A stretch of 64,000 nucleotides of DNA from Candidatus Kapaibacterium sp. (lineage in GTDB: Bacteria > Bacteroidota > Ignavibacteria > Kapaibacteriales > UBA2268), in assembly GCA_023957315.1 (NCBI GenBank), contig JAMLHE010000002.1, positions 1-64,000 of the forward strand. Reading direction: 5' to 3'. The position numbers and the translations under genes were made by a program. Positions 45,168-55,373 of the stretch are shown one piece after another. Below the pieces are notes generated by a model. It searched no databases, had not been told where the DNA came from, and saw only the letters and a program-made list of their open reading frames with translations. The first letter of the stretch is position 1, and every line of letters starts with the position of its first letter.

Positions 45168-45327
45168 TTTCTGTTTTTGATTTGTTCTTAACGTTTTGAG
45201 GCAAAGAAATGTGTGGTTTTTTGAACACGAAACTGTCTGCCAAGCACTAAACTTGAGACGAGCCACAAAGCTCTTGATTTAACCACCACTTCACCTGTCA
45301 TAAGTTGTATATGCTATTGTAGTGTCG

Positions 45328-46894: not shown

Positions 46895-47062
46895 TGTTTA
46901 TTTAAGTAATCAATTCCAAAAAATTCACTTTGCAAATATAGTGAAAAAAGTTAGATGTGCAAATTTATAGAGAGGGTGGAAGTGAGGAGAGAGTTTGGGA
47001 GAAGGAAGAAGCATGAATGCACTGAAGCGTTCCATTTGGGTAGGTGCTGTTACCGGGTCGTT
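46895..47062 (-). repeat. Recurrent spacer between mcrC and the OmpA gene
   Basis: The spacer starts with the boundary CCCGGTAACAGCACC, which overlaps the mcrC stop codon, and ends with TTAAATAAACATTAGG. Bases 46976-47004 match 53277-53305 of another spacer at 27 of 29 positions. It contains the promoter listed separately. Similar architecture is found at 53197-53365. Confidence 0.75.
46933..46963 (-). promoter_or_regulatory. Promoter of the OmpA-family gene
   Basis: On the minus strand TTTG (46963-46960) is followed after 19 bp by TATATTTG (46940-46933). This matches the Bacteroidota consensus TTTG-N19-21-TAnnTTTG. Confidence 0.8.
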
Positions 47063-48420
47063 GTTCTTCTCTCAAGCTCATTAAGTTCATTTGTTAGTAG
47101 TCGCTTTGCTTCATTGATGCTGTCTTTTTTTAATGGAATACCCATTACTAAAACCGTGTTTGTTACTTCGTTAATTCCGTTCTTATATTTTATTTTTTTC
47201 AATTCTAATTGGTCTGATGGATAACAAAGAAACCCATATTTAAAGTCTGTCTTACTAAAAGATGTATAGGCCATAATTTGGTGTAAATCGTGTCTGTGGT
47301 CGTCTTTCAGAGTTTCGCTATTGTCGAACTTGTTATAAAGATTTGATTTGTACTTAGCGTCTATGAATACTAAAAGGTTTTCCTTTTGATAAATAGCGTC
47401 TGGTTCAATGTGTTTTAGTTCCCAAGAATAATGCTTAGAAGTTCGTGAGTGGAATTTGAAATTTACAAATAATTTCCCTCCAGTCTCTTTAGCAACTGCT
47501 TTGAAAATATGTTGAACGAATTTTTCAAAAACATCTGAGAAGTCTACTCTCCATGCTGTACTGTCAACCAAATTAAAGTTTAGAATTTTATTAGCTTGTG
47601 CTTTACACGTTTTTACTGTTGGGCTGTCAGATGATTTGATAACAATATTATTTGTCGCTTTAGGTGTATGGTAATACAATTTTTCTTCAATGAAACTCAA
47701 CTTTACACGGATTGTGTTTTTTATTCTTTGTGGCGTGTTGGATGAAAGCAACTCGTTCTTACAAATGTCAAATACATACCGTACTTCAGCATATTCGCTA
47801 TGAAATTCACTTAAAATATTTTTTCGGGTTGGAAACCTTAAACGATTTTCAATTTTGTATTCGTTGTTGATGTATTTGTTCCAATTGATTTGTCCAGTGG
47901 GTTGGCTGGATATTTTTTCGATATTGTCAAACTTACGCCAAGGTCTTGAAAGTAATGCTTCAAGAGAAGCAATGAATTTCACTGCTTCTAAATATAACGG
48001 TGGTCGGAAGTTTTTACCAGAAGCAAGCGGTAAGCTGTCAATAACTTCCGGGCTTATTTCTGTTCCAAGTAAATTCAGAATTTCAATGTAATCTTCAAAA
48101 CGGTCACACCCAGTAAACCTTGGCATTACAACAAAATCACCTATTTGCTTTCCGGTGTCAGATGCTCTAAGGGAATGGTACCGATGAAGCTGGAAGAACG
48201 AAAAGTCAATGAGGTATTTTGTCAGAGCCAATAATAGCTGTTGAACGCCTATGAACTTAAATTGTGATGAGTTATAGTCTATAAACTTTTGGATGTACTG
48301 GCCAATAATTCTTTTGTCAGCCGATTTAAACCATTTTTTTTGTAAAGCAATTCCACTTAACTGTCTTGATTGTTCAGTTAAGCAAGGCACTTCACAGAAA
48401 ACATCTAATGGCTTGCTCAT
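47050..48420 (-). CDS. mcrC: McrC-like restriction endonuclease subunit
   Basis: McrC supplies the nuclease of the modification-dependent McrBC restriction system. The protein has 456 residues. The N-terminal part fits the McrBC 5-methylcytosine restriction component family. The C-terminal PD-(D/E)xK nuclease site is visible as EPDAIYQKENLLVFIDAKYK, with D, D and K in the expected order near 335-350. Its ATG overlaps the mcrB stop (ATGA). The stop codon lies inside a spacer boundary sequence. Confidence 0.9.
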   Translation of the reverse strand: MSKPLDVFCEVPCLTEQSRQLSGIALQKKWFKSADKRIIGQYIQKFIDYNSSQFKFIGVQQLLLALTKYLIDFSFFQLHRYHSLRASDTGKQIGDFVVMPRFTGCDRFEDYIEILNLLGTEISPEVIDSLPLASGKNFRPPLYLEAVKFIASLEALLSRPWRKFDNIEKISSQPTGQINWNKYINNEYKIENRLRFPTRKNILSEFHSEYAEVRYVFDICKNELLSSNTPQRIKNTIRVKLSFIEEKLYYHTPKATNNIVIKSSDSPTVKTCKAQANKILNFNLVDSTAWRVDFSDVFEKFVQHIFKAVAKETGGKLFVNFKFHSRTSKHYSWELKHIEPDAIYQKENLLVFIDAKYKSNLYNKFDNSETLKDDHRHDLHQIMAYTSFSKTDFKYGFLCYPSDQLELKKIKYKNGINEVTNTVLVMGIPLKKDSINEAKRLLTNELNELERRTTTR

Positions 48421-49805
48421 TCAAAAAGTGATTTGTTTATTCGAGTAGCGAAATAATTATTAAATTCTTCTTTGGTATTTCTAATCAACCCTTCTTGTAA
48501 ATATTCTTTTATCAATGGGAATATTTCGTACTTGATACGGTTTGTCATTTCCTCTTCGCTGTCTGCAATAAAGTAACCTTGGCCCGGTTGCAATGACAAT
48601 TCACTACTTGAAGCGTACCATTCAAATATTTCTTGAATTCTTGTAAAATCAACTTTGAAGAATTGTTTTGAAATAATGGCCTTAGGTTTTAATGTATACC
48701 AAGCAAATCGTCTACGTAACGCAAAGTCAACAACCGCCAAGCTTCTATCAGCAGTGTTCATTGTAGCGATTACAGTAAAGTTATTCGGGAGTTTGTTAAT
48801 CTTGAAACCAGGAGAAATTTCAATTTCAACATTTGATTTGTCCATTTTGTGTTCAAACAAATAGAAAATGGGTCCTAAAACATTCGAAAGATTTGCTCTG
48901 TTTATTTCGTCAATTATCAAAAGAACTTTTTCATTCTCGTGTTCTTTCGCATACTTCAAAGCCTCGGTAAAACTTCCCAAATTTTCTTTGTAGCTAAGTT
49001 CTTTATTGTTTAAATCTGGGCGAATACCAAAAATAAAATCTGAAAAACTAGTCTCCGCGTGGAACTGGGTGAAAAATGTTTTTGCTTTAATTTTTTCTGC
49101 AACTTCTTTTGCTGTTCTTGTTTTCCCAGTCCCAGGAGGTCCTTGAAGTACAATATATTTTCTTTCGTTCAAAAGATTTTTTATTTCTTCTGCTTCATCA
49201 ATTGCATCTGCCTTAACGAAAGGTTCCAAAGCTTCTGATATAGCCCTTCGGTGGTCTTTGTTTGATGACCAGTCTCTAAGTTTTGCATAACCTGCTACAA
49301 ATGCTGCAATTGTTTTCTTGCCTTCTTCGCTTTCAGGGTCATCAACAATTTGGCAAGCTGGTAAAACTTTTGTGTAAGTCTTTATTGTGTTTTTTATGTG
49401 TTCTAAATCTAGGCTGCCAGTGATGGACTTTGGCAAACTTGTTTCTATGTCAGAAAAGTCCGATTTACAAAATCCTTTTTCATTAATAAGTTTAGAAAAT
49501 AGTCGTCTTAGTCCGGGATAGGTTGCAAGCTCATAATCATTTTTAAAACCACTAGAACCAATACCCAAACAAACTAACCAAGGTTGATCTTGGTCGTTTG
49601 GAAATATAGTTAATGAAAAGTCGTGGAACGGTCCCGAAGCTTCTTCTTCTGGATGAATAAAACCAAAATATGCTCCATTGTCTTTTAAAGCTTCATGTCC
49701 AGTGTTGTTTCGTTCAACATAAGGTTTATTAAATTCGTTGTCAGTCTTGGCACCGAACTGTTCCGCTTTCTCTTTGATGAATTGTCTAATATTCTCTATG
49801 TTCAT
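48417..49805 (-). CDS. mcrB: McrB-like AAA+ GTPase restriction subunit
   Basis: McrB recognises modified DNA and drives cleavage by McrC using GTP. The protein has 462 residues. The C-terminal motor has Walker A GPPGTGKT at 222-229, Walker B VLLIIDEINRANLS near 284, and the McrB signature MNTADRSLAVVDFALRRRF near 345. The 200-residue N-terminal domain differs from the E. coli DNA-binding domain and resembles the predicted-specificity domains found in other McrB homologues. The base it reads cannot be told. A promoter with perfect spacing lies at 49880-49911. Confidence 0.92.
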   Translation of the reverse strand: MNIENIRQFIKEKAEQFGAKTDNEFNKPYVERNNTGHEALKDNGAYFGFIHPEEEASGPFHDFSLTIFPNDQDQPWLVCLGIGSSGFKNDYELATYPGLRRLFSKLINEKGFCKSDFSDIETSLPKSITGSLDLEHIKNTIKTYTKVLPACQIVDDPESEEGKKTIAAFVAGYAKLRDWSSNKDHRRAISEALEPFVKADAIDEAEEIKNLLNERKYIVLQGPPGTGKTRTAKEVAEKIKAKTFFTQFHAETSFSDFIFGIRPDLNNKELSYKENLGSFTEALKYAKEHENEKVLLIIDEINRANLSNVLGPIFYLFEHKMDKSNVEIEISPGFKINKLPNNFTVIATMNTADRSLAVVDFALRRRFAWYTLKPKAIISKQFFKVDFTRIQEIFEWYASSSELSLQPGQGYFIADSEEEMTNRIKYEIFPLIKEYLQEGLIRNTKEEFNNYFATRINKSLFE

Positions 49806-49833
49806 ATTGTCTGTTTGAATGTCGTTTTACAAT

Positions 49834-49911
49834 GCCCGGCAACTCGTTTATTTTCGCCATAAAGTTATTAATTACTTTACAAATCTAACCAAATATTACT
49901 GAATCTCCAAA
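49834..49911 (-). promoter_or_regulatory. Promoter and conserved leader of mcrBC
   Basis: On the minus strand TTTG (49911-49908) is followed after 20 bp by TAGATTTG (49887-49880). Then come AAAATAAACGAGTT and the boundary GTTGCCGGGC, complementary at 8 of 10 positions to the sequence at the mcrC stop (47049-47058). Confidence 0.8.
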
Positions 49912-49923
49912 TCCATTCCCCCC

Positions 49924-50805
49924 TTACTCATTTTCTTCGTAGTAATAGGAATAGTCAATTCCTTTCATAAACATTTCGCGGTCGTTTATTTTGGTGGTTA
50001 AAGCGTTGTTCAACAGTTTTTTTAGAAGGCTATTGTTTGTTGGGCTATGCTTCATTGCGTTCATGTAATCATTTTTTGTGATTTTACTCCAATCTACACA
50101 TTTTTTCAGGCGTTTTTTTAGGAGCAAATCTAACCATATTCGGGCGCTTCTGCCGTTACCTTCCATAAAAGGGTGGGCAATATTCATTTCTACATATTTT
50201 TCAAGGATTTCGTCAAAAGTAGTTTCGGGCATTGCATCAATTCGCTGCAATGTTTCGCCCAAAAATCGTGATATGGCAAATTGAAAGCCACCTTTTGAAA
50301 TGTTTTTTTGCCTTATTTGTCCGGCAAAATCATACAAGCCACCAAACAAATAAGCGTGAATTTGTTGCAAACCCTTAGCTGTGCCAACTTCAATGCCGTC
50401 TATAAATGAACTTTCAAAGAGTGCATATGCTTTTGTTTTGCTTTTGCCGTCTATGCTTTCGTCGCTAAATGTAAACCATTCAATGAATCGGTTGGCTTTG
50501 GTACCCGGAAACGTTTTGCCCAAAGCAATAATGCCCTGATAATCCATCATATCCGCCAAACGCTCTTTGCCGTCGGGGGCAAGAAATTTCAACTGGGTAG
50601 TGACACTAACCACTTGACTGTTTTCTTTCTTTAATTTAGCTTTAAGATATTTCCAATAGTTACGGGTTTTGGTGTAGTCGTCTTGGTCGGTAAGTACTGC
50701 TACAATATCCAACACCGAAAACCACCACTTGGCGTTTTCTTCATCCCACACGGCTCGCACCTCGCGGTCATCAAAAAATCGTATGGAAATTTTTTCCTTA
50801 CTCAT
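49924..50805 (-). CDS. BRO-N/Fic-domain fusion protein
   Basis: The protein has 293 residues. Residues 1-112 resemble the BRO-N domain of phage antirepressors and baculovirus BRO proteins ([45 protein letters not shown]). Residues 120-275 form a Fic domain with the catalytic HPFMEGNGR at 211-219. Fic enzymes transfer AMP or other phosphate-containing groups to target proteins. No (S/T)xxxEG inhibitory motif is evident, and there is no partner antitoxin, so the BRO-N part may control or target it. Its stop lies at the promoter of mcrBC. Confidence 0.85.
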
Positions 50806-52593: not shown

Positions 52594-53115
52594 CTACATA
52601 CTTCCATTTGTCAGTTTAGCTCTCCACAAATCAATTGCTTCACTATTATCACCTTCTGCTGTTTCTATTCTAAAGTTCACAAGCTGTGTATTCATTTTAT
52701 CAATGTATGACTGGATGATTTTACCGATTTTTCTCGTCGAACCGGCATTTATTTTCCTCTCATTAATTTCCTTTTCACATTCTTTAGCATAAAAGTGGGC
52801 TATATCATACTTAATCTGGGCATATTTCAGCAATTGCTCTGACATAAATTCAGGCTTGACCCAGGAAGAATCTCTTCGTATTCCCGCAACTGATTCAACA
52901 GTAATTGTTCCAAACCACAAACCTACATCTTTAGTAATGGTTACTATGGTTAGGTTTAATGTTAGTTTTGACGAATCACTAATATCAGGATTCATTCGGA
53001 AATCTGACCATTCCAATTGGCTTTTTGACAGATAAGTAATGGTATCACCTTCGACGGCTCCGGCAGTGCAAATAGCTGCCATGAATAAAACGATTAAGAA
53101 AAAGGACTTTTTCAT
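52594..53115 (-). CDS. Secreted DUF922-like protein lacking the HExxH-type residues
   Basis: The protein has 173 residues with a signal peptide ending ICTAGA. SQLEWSDFRMNPD matches the L-x-W-x-D-F start of DUF922 proteins, which are putative zinc proteases. In relatives the later helix has an L-x-H-E-Q-x-H-F-D pattern; here it reads LLKYAQIKYDIAHFY, so the presumed metal ligands H and E are Y and A. It is probably non-catalytic. The family call is from memory of the pattern and should be treated as tentative. A promoter lies at 53229-53260. Confidence 0.55.
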   Translation of the reverse strand: MKKSFFLIVLFMAAICTAGAVEGDTITYLSKSQLEWSDFRMNPDISDSSKLTLNLTIVTITKDVGLWFGTITVESVAGIRRDSSWVKPEFMSEQLLKYAQIKYDIAHFYAKECEKEINERKINAGSTRKIGKIIQSYIDKMNTQLVNFRIETAEGDNSEAIDLWRAKLTNGSM

Positions 53116-53189
53116 TTTAACTCTTTTATTGGTTATAGTTCAAACTCAATTTCTATCTTAATTGCAGAGACTTTTTCTAAAATCACTGC

Positions 53190-53365
53190 CAATTCGTTTA
53201 TTTCCACCATACCACAAAATTCACTTTGCAAATTTAAGGAAAAAATTGGGGATTTGCAAATTTTTTGGGGGGGGATGAGGAAGTGAGGAGAAAGTTTGGG
53301 AGAAGAGGGGAGATGGTTTAAGCATTTAGGCGGTGATTTTTGGGGGGGTACTGTTATGGGCAGGC
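53190..53365 (-). repeat. Recurrent spacer between the DUF6994-like and DUF922-like genes
   Basis: The spacer begins with GCCTGCCCATAACAGTACC just after the TAG of the upstream gene and ends with GGAAATAAACGAATTGG. Bases 53277-53305 are 27/29 identical to 46976-47004. The layout (AACAGNACC boundary, GGAAGTGAGGAGA block on the plus strand, promoter, AAATAAAC) is the same as in the mcrC-OmpA spacer. Confidence 0.78.
53229..53260 (-). promoter_or_regulatory. Promoter of the DUF922-like gene
   Basis: On the minus strand TTTG (53260-53257) is followed after 20 bp by TAAATTTG (53236-53229). The downstream leader contains GAAATAAACGAATTGGCAG. Confidence 0.8.
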
Positions 53366-53368
53366 ATT

Positions 53369-54076
53369 CTATTCTGTTGTTCGTTGGTTTGCATAGTTTT
53401 CTATTCTTTTGTTTCTCGCCTTAATGAAGTTCAATACTCCATTTTTATAAGTCAGATAGTCATTAATTTCGGAAAATGTCGGTTTGGTTTTGAAGTTGTC
53501 GAATGGCAAGTAGAATTTTACTTTTTTGTTTTCGTCCACAAGGTCGTAGAGTAAAAAGAACTTGTAATATCCTTCAAAGCTTTCAAACAAATCAAAGAAG
53601 TTTTTATATCTCAATAACGTGTAGTAAAGCGGACTTTCTTGTCCTAAGTAAAAAAGTCGAATGCACTCCAATGTCAAGTCAAATCTGTCGTCAATTAAGC
53701 TATTTACTCCACGTGCTTGATTTATTGTATGTTTCCCGCCAACTCTATTGTTCGGGAAAAGTGTGTATGCTCCAATAGTCGAACCCGTGTCAAACAGCTC
53801 TTTTACTTCGTCTTGAATTTGTTGAGTCAGCCAAATCTTGCGTTTGTGATTTCTATATGAATGTGTAATTGCATCACTTCCTAATGAAAATTCTCCAAGT
53901 CCTGATTTATGGTATAAATAAGTTCCGCTTTTCTTGTCAGTTAGTTCAAATATATCCCCGTTAGGCAAAGGCTTATTCCACAGAAATTGGTGGTATGCTC
54001 GAAGTGTCGGACTTGTGCTATCCGGGTCTCCGCCATTTGCGTCTGTGTAAAAATTAAATGTTGTGTCAATTACCAT
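53369..54076 (-). CDS. DUF6994-like protein of unknown function
   Basis: The protein has 235 residues and is soluble, with no signal peptide. The start region FYTDANGGDPDSTSPTLRAYHQFLW then KPLPNGDIFEL is characteristic of a small bacterial family that I recall as DUF6994. A second conserved part is DAITHSYRNHKRKIW. No enzymatic signature is visible. The gene is bounded by GTTATGGGCAAGC before it (54139-54127) and GCCTGCCCATAAC after it (53365-53353), complementary at 12 of 13 positions, like the two ends of an integron cassette. Confidence 0.65.
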   Translation of the reverse strand: MVIDTTFNFYTDANGGDPDSTSPTLRAYHQFLWNKPLPNGDIFELTDKKSGTYLYHKSGLGEFSLGSDAITHSYRNHKRKIWLTQQIQDEVKELFDTGSTIGAYTLFPNNRVGGKHTINQARGVNSLIDDRFDLTLECIRLFYLGQESPLYYTLLRYKNFFDLFESFEGYYKFFLLYDLVDENKKVKFYLPFDNFKTKPTFSEINDYLTYKNGVLNFIKARNKRIENYANQRTTE

Positions 54077-54126
54077 TTATTAATTCCTTTTTGTCAACCG
54101 TTTTATTGTCGTTACGGTCGTCCTAC

Positions 54127-54263
54127 GCTTGCCCATAACGTTTTGCAGCTACAAGAAGGTGGCGATTCGGGCGATTTCTGTTAAGTTACACAAAAGTTGA
54201 AGAGGGCTACAACCCTTGAATTTACTACTGTCCCCGCCATTTGCTATTTTACGTGTTGCAGGG
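54127..54263 (-). repeat. attC-like spacer upstream of the DUF6994-like gene
   Basis: Read on the minus strand, the spacer runs from CCCTGCAACACG (54263) to CAAAACGTTATGGGCAAGC (54127). An imperfect inverted pairing is seen between the AACACGTAAAATAGC...GGCGG arm and the CGCCACCTTCTTGTAGCTGC...AACGTT arm. It has no promoter block, unlike the other spacers. The 137-bp palindromic layout with AAC...GTT ends resembles attC sites. Confidence 0.5.
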
Positions 54264-54287
54264 AGTTTAATTATCATGATCTTAGCT

Positions 54288-55373
54288 TTATTTAATTTCC
54301 AGTAAAGGTTTAATAACTTTCTTTAGCATAAACCTCAATGCTTTAGAGGTATAGGATTTATCATTGAATGTACCTATAACATATGCTTCAGTTTGCGGAT
54401 GGAAGAACATAAAGGCGCCGGTAACACCTACGCACCCCCAGCAAAAATACTTTTCAGGCATTAACAACGGAATGGCTTTAGGCTTCCAGACAGAATAGCC
54501 ATAATCAAAGCCTATGGCAGGGAAACCCATTTTAATATCATCATAAATCATTTTATTCAAAGTAGCTTCTTTCACCAATTTGCCGTTAACCAAAGCTTTC
54601 ATGAAAACCAGGTATTCGCTCAGTGGTGCCACTACGCCTCCTCCTGCATAATCAATCTTTGCCACTCTTTTATTCTCGATAAAATTGGTGTTGAAAAGAT
54701 AGATATTCGCCGGAGGATATAGGGGTTTGTTTTTTGGTTCGGAATAACCGTTAATATAAGCATTCTCCATTTTCAAAGGCTCAAAAATCATTTCATGCAC
54801 AGCTTCGTGAAAAGATTTTTTGGTGATATTTTCGATGATTAAACCCAGCAAATAATAATTTGTATCTGTATAAAAATGTTTTTGACCAGGCTTTCCAACA
54901 GGTTTAAGGTTTGTTTTTCCCCATTCCAGTGCTTGTCTCACCGTCATTTCAAGGTTTGGGTCGTTCATTATCTTTTTAAGTAATAGGAAAAAGACATCAT
55001 TTAACCCCGATGTTTGTTTCAGTAAATTTTTGATGCTGATATCAGACGAGAAGTCTTTGCCCTTATAGACATGCAATGCACTCATCAGTTCTGTATCAAG
55101 GTATTTTGAAATTTTGTCCTCAAAAGATAGTAGCCCTTTATCGTGCAGCATACTTATGACAGTTGCTGTAAAGAGTTTGCCTACGGATGCAAGGTGGTTG
55201 GCTTGCTTCGGATTTGCCTGAAATTCTCCCGTCTTACCTTCCGAAATATTGATTTCAATTCCTAGCTTTTCGGAATGAACAAGCAGATAAGCATTCTTTA
55301 CTTTTTTATCATTTTGTACTTGCTGCCTAAAATTGGACTCAATTTCCTCCTTGACTGTAGCTATGTTTTTCAT
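54288..55373 (-). CDS. Serine hydrolase of the beta-lactamase/PBP-C superfamily
   Basis: The protein has 361 residues with no clear signal peptide. The SxxK motif is ASVGKLFTA near 63-71, and the second motif is YTDTNYYLLG near 165 (Y-x-N-like DTN). A late G-rich strand, CVGVTGAFMFF, takes the place of KTG. Members are peptidases or esterases and most are not true beta-lactamases. It has its own promoter at 55467-55497 and is flanked on both sides by the recurrent spacers. Confidence 0.82.
   Translation of the reverse strand: MKNIATVKEEIESNFRQQVQNDKKVKNAYLLVHSEKLGIEINISEGKTGEFQANPKQANHLASVGKLFTATVISMLHDKGLLSFEDKISKYLDTELMSALHVYKGKDFSSDISIKNLLKQTSGLNDVFFLLLKKIMNDPNLEMTVRQALEWGKTNLKPVGKPGQKHFYTDTNYYLLGLIIENITKKSFHEAVHEMIFEPLKMENAYINGYSEPKNKPLYPPANIYLFNTNFIENKRVAKIDYAGGGVVAPLSEYLVFMKALVNGKLVKEATLNKMIYDDIKMGFPAIGFDYGYSVWKPKAIPLLMPEKYFCWGCVGVTGAFMFFHPQTEAYVIGTFNDKSYTSKALRFMLKKVIKPLLEIK

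Follow-up and report, generated by a model that had tools for sequence, protein, structure and literature searches.

The window, by which we mean the whole 64,000-nucleotide stretch of DNA analysed, carries on its minus strand a compact unit (53353–54139) made up of a single gene and a pair of complementary ends (Table 1). The gene had been described from the letters alone as DUF6994-like, with a stop codon 3 bp from the end boundary and with 13-bp ends complementary at 12 of 13 positions, and these descriptions hold: the product falls into the Pfam family DUF6994 (PF22507) with E=1.9e-89, the coding sequence stops 3 bp short of the boundary, and GTTATGGGCAAGC (54139–54127) pairs with GCCTGCCCATAAC (53365–53353) at positions 1–10, 12 and 13, the sole exception being position 11, where A stands opposite C. 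In the 64 kb, only the two unit ends match GTTATGGGCARGC with fewer than three mismatches, and three-mismatch matches occur at the chance rate. For the DUF6994 protein, no PDB relative and no PADLOC match were found, and a structure predicted from two sequences had a pLDDT of 34 and was unusable. Plasmids yielded only relatives of 36–44% identity, and no cassette ends were seen in the inspected flanks of a viral relative (L351).

Table 1. Features of the DUF6994 unit and its surroundings, in window coordinates
Feature	Position	Strand	Remarks
DUF6994-family cassette gene (PF22507)	53369..54076	-	235 aa, function unknown
Cassette start, extended R' arm GTTATGGGCAAGCGT	54125..54139	-	A at position 11
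Cassette end, extended R'' arm ATGCCTGCCCATAAC	53353..53367	-	C opposite position 11
Upstream attC-like hairpin, 5' of cassette	54125..54272	-	Covariance-model match, 42-43 bits
What remains of the attC-like hairpin belonging to the cassette	53329..53352, or to 53355 as AACAGTACCCCCCCAAAAATCACCGCC	-	Just 5' arm (AGTACCCCCCCAAAAATCACCGCC / AACAGTACCCCCCCAAAAATCACCGCC)
Beta-lactamase/esterase-fold gene (PF00144)	54288..55373	-	Ends at R''-like CTGCAAC (54255-54269), C at 11
Weak class II attC relic	45178..45314	-	25 bits, E=0.02-0.08; directly 5' of argB

The sites on either side of the unit are damaged. The upstream hairpin is a chimera whose 3' arm (CGCCACCTTCTTGTAGCTGCAAAACGTTA) belongs to a hairpin type referred to here as class II and whose 5' part, of another attC-like subtype, resembles one seen at two other loci (L259 and L054). 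For the downstream remnant, neither a matching 3' arm nor a covariance-model match was found. The attC-like fold anticipated by the first-pass annotation failed to appear in the window itself: folded as DNA, neither region did better than shuffled sequences, because the two hairpins are chimeric and truncated. The PF00144 gene probably represents the preceding cassette, an assignment that stays tentative because the unit's own start, sought as the complement of its end, was not found. The weak relic adjoins an apparent argB–argD–argC operon (gene names from reading the proteins) and is perhaps an off-target insertion or the trace of a lost cassette.

The same part of the window holds other genes and repeats. 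A protein with Bro-N and Fic domains (49924–50805, minus strand) scores 543.9 bits against PDC-S04, one of PADLOC's candidate defence families. Next to each other stand an McrB-like AAA_5 ATPase and, after it, a protein of 456 aa for which Pfam has no match (47050–49805, minus strand); the latter is McrC-like only as a guess, and the pair is a possible restriction system. A promoter-like segment is duplicated together with the start of a short frame (49825–49912 and 53175–53261; M-KINEL and M-EINEL; families D1 and D6), the copies lying upstream of 48417–49805 and of 52594–53115.

Elsewhere in the window's genome, CGCCACCTTCTTGTAGCTGCAAAACGTTA, which lies just upstream of the DUF6994 unit in the sense of the gene, recurs at two sites. 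At both it serves as the 3' arm in a ~121-nt palindrome, AACAGCACCTAC..GGCG....CGCC..GTAGCTGCAAAACGTTA, and each palindrome stands 3' of a gene with its own, different complementary start and end: GTTATGGCTC and GAGCCATAAC for a peptidase-like gene and (A)TTACAAGCC and GGCTTGTAAC for a lipase-like gene, both with the A·C mismatch at position 11. A covariance model of the hairpin (R1) located five class II places in this genome, one of them weak. No IntI scored above the NCBIfam cut-off (the best TIGR02249 score was 77 against the required 265 bits), a search for the I2-less recombinase family introduced later gave nothing at E<=1e-80, and the attI-like site of the relatives is absent as far as tested. 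Since the genome is 98% complete and in 28 contigs, the absence of a recombinase is likely, not certain. With attC sites in a genome without IntI, it satisfies the definition of a CALIN. As the downstream hairpin is partly lost and the genome has neither integrase, the window copy is a relic and probably immobile.

The pairing between the ends of one cassette follows a rule that can be read directly from related loci. Downstream of the cassette start, its exact 10-nt complement turned up in 34/124 of these loci, as compared with 17/2453 mismatched controls. In a set of 37 cassettes selected only on positions 1–10, position 11 was A·C in 34, positions 12–15 paired in 81–95% and pairing fell to background from position 16. 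The pattern recurs in 55 array cassettes defined independently, by adjacent covariance-model matches: 45 had at least 10 of 12 start–end pairs (3.8% among controls), and in these 45 position 11 never paired (0/45), position 10 paired in 67% and position 16 was A·A in 36. Because position 11 is unpaired across the well-paired array cassettes while its neighbours mostly pair, the single mismatch at 11 in the window unit is a signature and not noise. A unit of ~0.79 kb with a single gene and ~13-bp inverted ends could also be a small non-autonomous transposon, its ends being terminal inverted repeats. We consider this very improbable: transposon ends are constant within a family, whereas the ends here vary from cassette to cassette and complement their own partner only, and the ~121-nt hairpin is part of the unit.

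The class II hairpins at the cassette ends are palindromic, most with ~121 nt between AAC and GTT. They fit the description of an attC site (a palindrome with AAC and GTT edges, 57–142 nt long, with a conserved stem) and show strong covariation: in an alignment of 30 hairpins, 95.8% of the cells were paired, with 71 compensatory double changes against 26 in shuffles (0/500). Among the stem columns, 33.122 was A·C in 30/30 and 30.125 in 22/30. Because such A·C mismatches on the top strand are G·T on the bottom strand, the bottom strand, known as the recombination substrate of attC (PMC2727003), folds better, at 111 of the 122 sites and by a mean of -3.7 kcal/mol; shuffled sequences were unbiased. 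A search of the L'' arm for extrahelical bases gave no consistent bulge, and the C·C and A·C mismatches of the top strand correspond to G·G and G·T on the bottom strand.

A degenerate 23-nt pattern of the 3' arm matched at least 120 stretches of genome contigs, those listed being nearly all from Bacteroidota, and 32 viral contigs. Hairpins, IntI and recombinases were counted over the same 395 genomes, drawn evenly from the phylum. Class II hairpins were found in 160/395, often as long one-strand arrays; in the model scans only a few candidates were scored per genome, with rough E-values. An Rfam search returned no attC-like match for the hairpin. The pattern also occurs in metagenome-assembled contigs labelled Methanoperedenaceae, Limnohabitans, Sphingomonadales and Methylococcaceae (L109, L079, L120 and L131), which could be due to transfer or misbinning. 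Another attC-like subtype, with a stem like GTATAARAGNAGTAGC, is present in L054 (7184–7333) and L259 (3126–5816) and has own-cassette ends of the same kind.

Comparison of genomes gave evidence of movement in whole cassettes. Two contigs that are 99% identical (L203 and L212) differ by a 1137-bp insertion exactly at CGTTA and make an empty/filled-site pair, which, together with the comparisons that follow, answers the earlier question of independent mobility through relatives. This precise, cassette-sized insertion into an array, without target duplication beyond the shared core, also speaks against a transposon. Two further contigs (L284 and L315) share 99.8% identity as far as ...GCTGCAAAACGTT, past which they are unrelated, genomes of different families (G059 and G001) share the same first cassette at attI, and in general DNA similarity between genomes begins and ends at cassette boundaries. 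The DUF6994 gene itself recurs, with a 74% identical protein, in an array cassette of a genome of another family (G375, L305:3526–4686), with an intact hairpin directly after it (to 4819), so that the expectation of finding the gene elsewhere was borne out, though not with the same ends. This cassette starts with GTTAGTGGCAAGC and ends with GCCAGCCACTAAC, and the differences are compensatory, GTTAGTGGC/GCCACTAAC as against GTTATGGGC/GCCCATAAC in the window, both ends having changed together. One further DUF6994 cassette (L064; G028) closes with a short, classically shaped attC; the cargo is therefore common to both systems. By eye only, the G375 cassette also contains an apparent truncated Cas9 N-terminus (MSKILGLDLGTNSIGWAIID..., L305 3580–3800). 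In another genome (G057:C1, L301–L303), a segment of ~1.24 kb ending near GTTA is repeated several times in an array at 98.6–100% identity, which is a cassette duplication.

These comparisons bear on another reading of the window, in which interspersed REP- or terminator-like repeats have no cassette function and the gene lies between two of them by chance. Palindromic intergenic repeats are common and the window's own hairpins are damaged; nevertheless the reading is hardly tenable, as it is contradicted by the L203/L212 insertion and by a complementarity that goes with the cassette and not with the repeat, and as the similarity between genomes is bounded by cassette edges and a recombinase stands ahead of long arrays that keep to one strand. 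The reading of the unit as an integron cassette, made in the first-pass annotation, holds with qualifications. An integron-type cassette is supported by the complementarity of its own ends, the abutting attC-like hairpins, the intact array in a relative and the precise insertions. A classical IntI integron is not: the IntI-type consensus, GTTRRRY for R' and RYYYAAC for R'', is not met, the window cassette starting with GTTATGG, the genome has no IntI, and the recombinase of the relatives lacks the IntI-specific insertion. On sequence evidence, we are confident, short of certainty, that the DUF6994 unit belongs, as a gene cassette that has become stranded, to an integron-like system found in Bacteroidota.

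A scan of the genes around long arrays identified related tyrosine recombinases without the IntI-specific I2 helix. The motif LPxALxxKYP of I2 is present in 27/29 IntI and 0/29 array recombinases, the spacing between KDR and HxxR is 100 aa in IntI and 59 aa in array recombinases, and the two groups form separate clades with support of 100/99 (the outgroup consisting of two Xer rows only). Against NCBIfam TIGR02249 the array recombinases reached 195–221 of the 265 bits, in a match split into two pieces, and against NF040815 (XerA) 193–248 with a cut-off of 220. Alignment to PDB entries was likewise continuous for XerA (4a8e/5hxy) and in two pieces for IntI4 (2a3v), with ~63 IntI residues against 21 between the pieces. 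In the predicted structure (pLDDT 73), a beta-alpha domain at the N-terminus is accompanied by core-binding and catalytic domains, and in the place of I2 the catalytic domain has only a short loop; the best structural match of the AlphaFold model was 5hxy, with a poor overall superposition (TM about 0.55 or less, rmsd ~16).

This family was found in 108/395 genomes (E<=1e-80), 87 of the 108 with the hairpin (odds ratio 12, p=2e-23), and a match to it at E<=1e-60 turned up in every one of 13 named genomes picked for the hairpin. Among the genomes listed with both, 20 recombinases lay within 15 kb of a hairpin, as against ~1 expected, every one on the 5' side and 15 of them co-oriented. The other five have the divergent orientation, are for the most part shorter and perhaps form a second subtype. 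Hairpins without a recombinase at E<=1e-80 were seen in 73 genomes, which could be relics, incomplete genomes or users of other enzymes.

The stretch following the recombinase gene is conserved as well. TATAAANNA followed by GTT[AG] lies ~100 nt past the stop codon in 24/29 recombinase genes (1% in shuffles), usually after inverted repeats, so that in the relatives a site adjoining the integrase gene, as required of an attI, is present. The first cassette after it has A at position 11 in 23/23, positions 5–7 being free. Five genomes of one genus have 90–96% identical DNA over recombinase and attI and split at GTT into different first cassettes, and Pedobacter glucosidilyticus DSM 23534 has, after its recombinase, GGATATTTACTA directly continued by GTTATAGCCAATTTT, and at least four hairpins.

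The association of recombinase, attI-like site and array is thus visible in the genomes themselves, and the recombinase could still be incidental if class II were merely the attC flavour of Bacteroidota moved by classical IntI, with the DUF6994 unit a plain CALIN relic. IntI scored above the cut-off in 105/395 sampled genomes, and in the 28 that have both IntI and class II it could move some cassettes; moreover, an IntI-linked Bacteroidota array (L260) also shows long own-cassette complementarity, of 10–15 bp. That array, however, has a different attC, and its well-paired cassettes show no gap at 11 and pair normally there. The 28 genomes with both fall short of the expected number (odds ratio 0.44, p=7e-4), and in one family (f28), where 34 genomes bear the hairpin, none has IntI, although both co-occurrences, with IntI and with the I2-less recombinase, are partly phylogenetic. 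The 20 IntI regions searched gave clear class II matches in one (L259, 34–45 bits), where IntI is close by and the genome encodes the I2-less recombinase as well, and a borderline match in another. Set against the 5' position of the I2-less recombinase in 20/20 cases and the conserved attI-like site after it, this makes dependence on IntI unlikely. It appears that the I2-less recombinase, and not IntI, runs the class II system, with its catalysis inferred.

The working order seen in relatives suggests how such a system may operate. The gene of the I2-less tyrosine recombinase is followed after ~100 nt by the putative attI, TATAAANNA and GTT, and by cassettes in tandem that with few exceptions point the same way. 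A cassette begins with GTTRNNNGNNANN, usually holds one gene and ends with NNCNNNNNNYAAC and the ~121-nt hairpin, which closes with the ...ACGTT of the next cassette. In a free cassette circle, the attC may be exposed as single-stranded DNA, the cassette's own start and end pairing into an outer stem of ~15 bp with the obligate non-pair at 11. This own-cassette stem is inferred to matter at the stage of the free circle because, within arrays, R'' faces the R' of the next cassette. The better-folding bottom strand would then be recognised and exchanged with a double-stranded attI, or with another attC, at the shared GTT, and exchange there would insert the cassette downstream of the recombinase. 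The layout of the arrays, the pairing rule of the cassette ends, the asymmetry of the strands, the linkage of recombinase, attI and array and the precise cassette-sized insertion are read from the sequences; the catalysis of exchange by the I2-less recombinase, the single-stranded bottom-strand substrate and the exact cut are inferred, as no recombination was observed and all evidence is comparative.

The class II system is widespread in Bacteroidota and appears to be missed by searches for classical integrons. With IntegronFinder, a first survey came up with nothing in Bacteroidetes beyond integrases that lacked attC sites, and a second with one complete integron, in Salinibacter (PMC9024848). 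We found no description of an I2-less integron in Bacteroidota in the literature, preprints and most subscription journals being outside the search. Cassette capture has been said to require the I2 helix, and the field to be limited by missing intermediates in the evolution of IntI (PMC7790495). About as probable as its negation, in our judgement, is the further proposal that the system is a second, independent integron of Bacteroidota, in which an Xer-like recombinase without I2 recombines folded cassette sites by means of a long own-cassette stem, whose obligate mismatch at 11 takes over from the extrahelical bases bound by I2, either as an independent invention or as the missing stage before I2. 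If class II is what it seems, with its own recombinase, attI and attC and a wide distribution, cassette capture has been largely overlooked in a major phylum, the need for I2 can be tested directly, and a large unsampled pool of cassette genes, DUF6994 among them, comes into view.

The array recombinase finds its best unbroken sequence match in XerA-type recombinases (PDB 5hxy and 4a8e; NF040815), from which it differs in heading a cassette array and usually in an added N-terminal domain. Xer enzymes act in chromosome dimer resolution at dif. An "integron-like" subgroup of simple tyrosine recombinases has been proposed in a classification that notes that the I2 insertion is not fully conserved; in the available part of that source, the I2-less members are not linked to an array or an attC-like site (PMC8138268). 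The integrons with IntI, attI and attC, such as class 1 and the chromosomal integron of Vibrio cholerae, share with class II the order of recombinase, attI and array, the usually single-gene cassettes in one direction, the palindromic attC with GTT/AAC edges and 57–142 nt, the better folding of the bottom strand and the self-pairing of a cassette's start and end beyond the 7-nt boxes, which in classical cassettes extends over 9–11 nt (PMC2727003). Class II differs in a recombinase that lacks the I2 helix, often has an extra N-terminal domain and is usually co-directional with the cassettes, in an R' that is not GTTRRRY and in an own-cassette stem of ~15 bp with an obligate mismatch at 11. The window's genome, with isolated cassettes and attC-like sites and without IntI, resembles a CALIN, but the arrays of its relatives are headed by a dedicated non-IntI recombinase, and class II arrays are therefore not simply arrays that have lost IntI.
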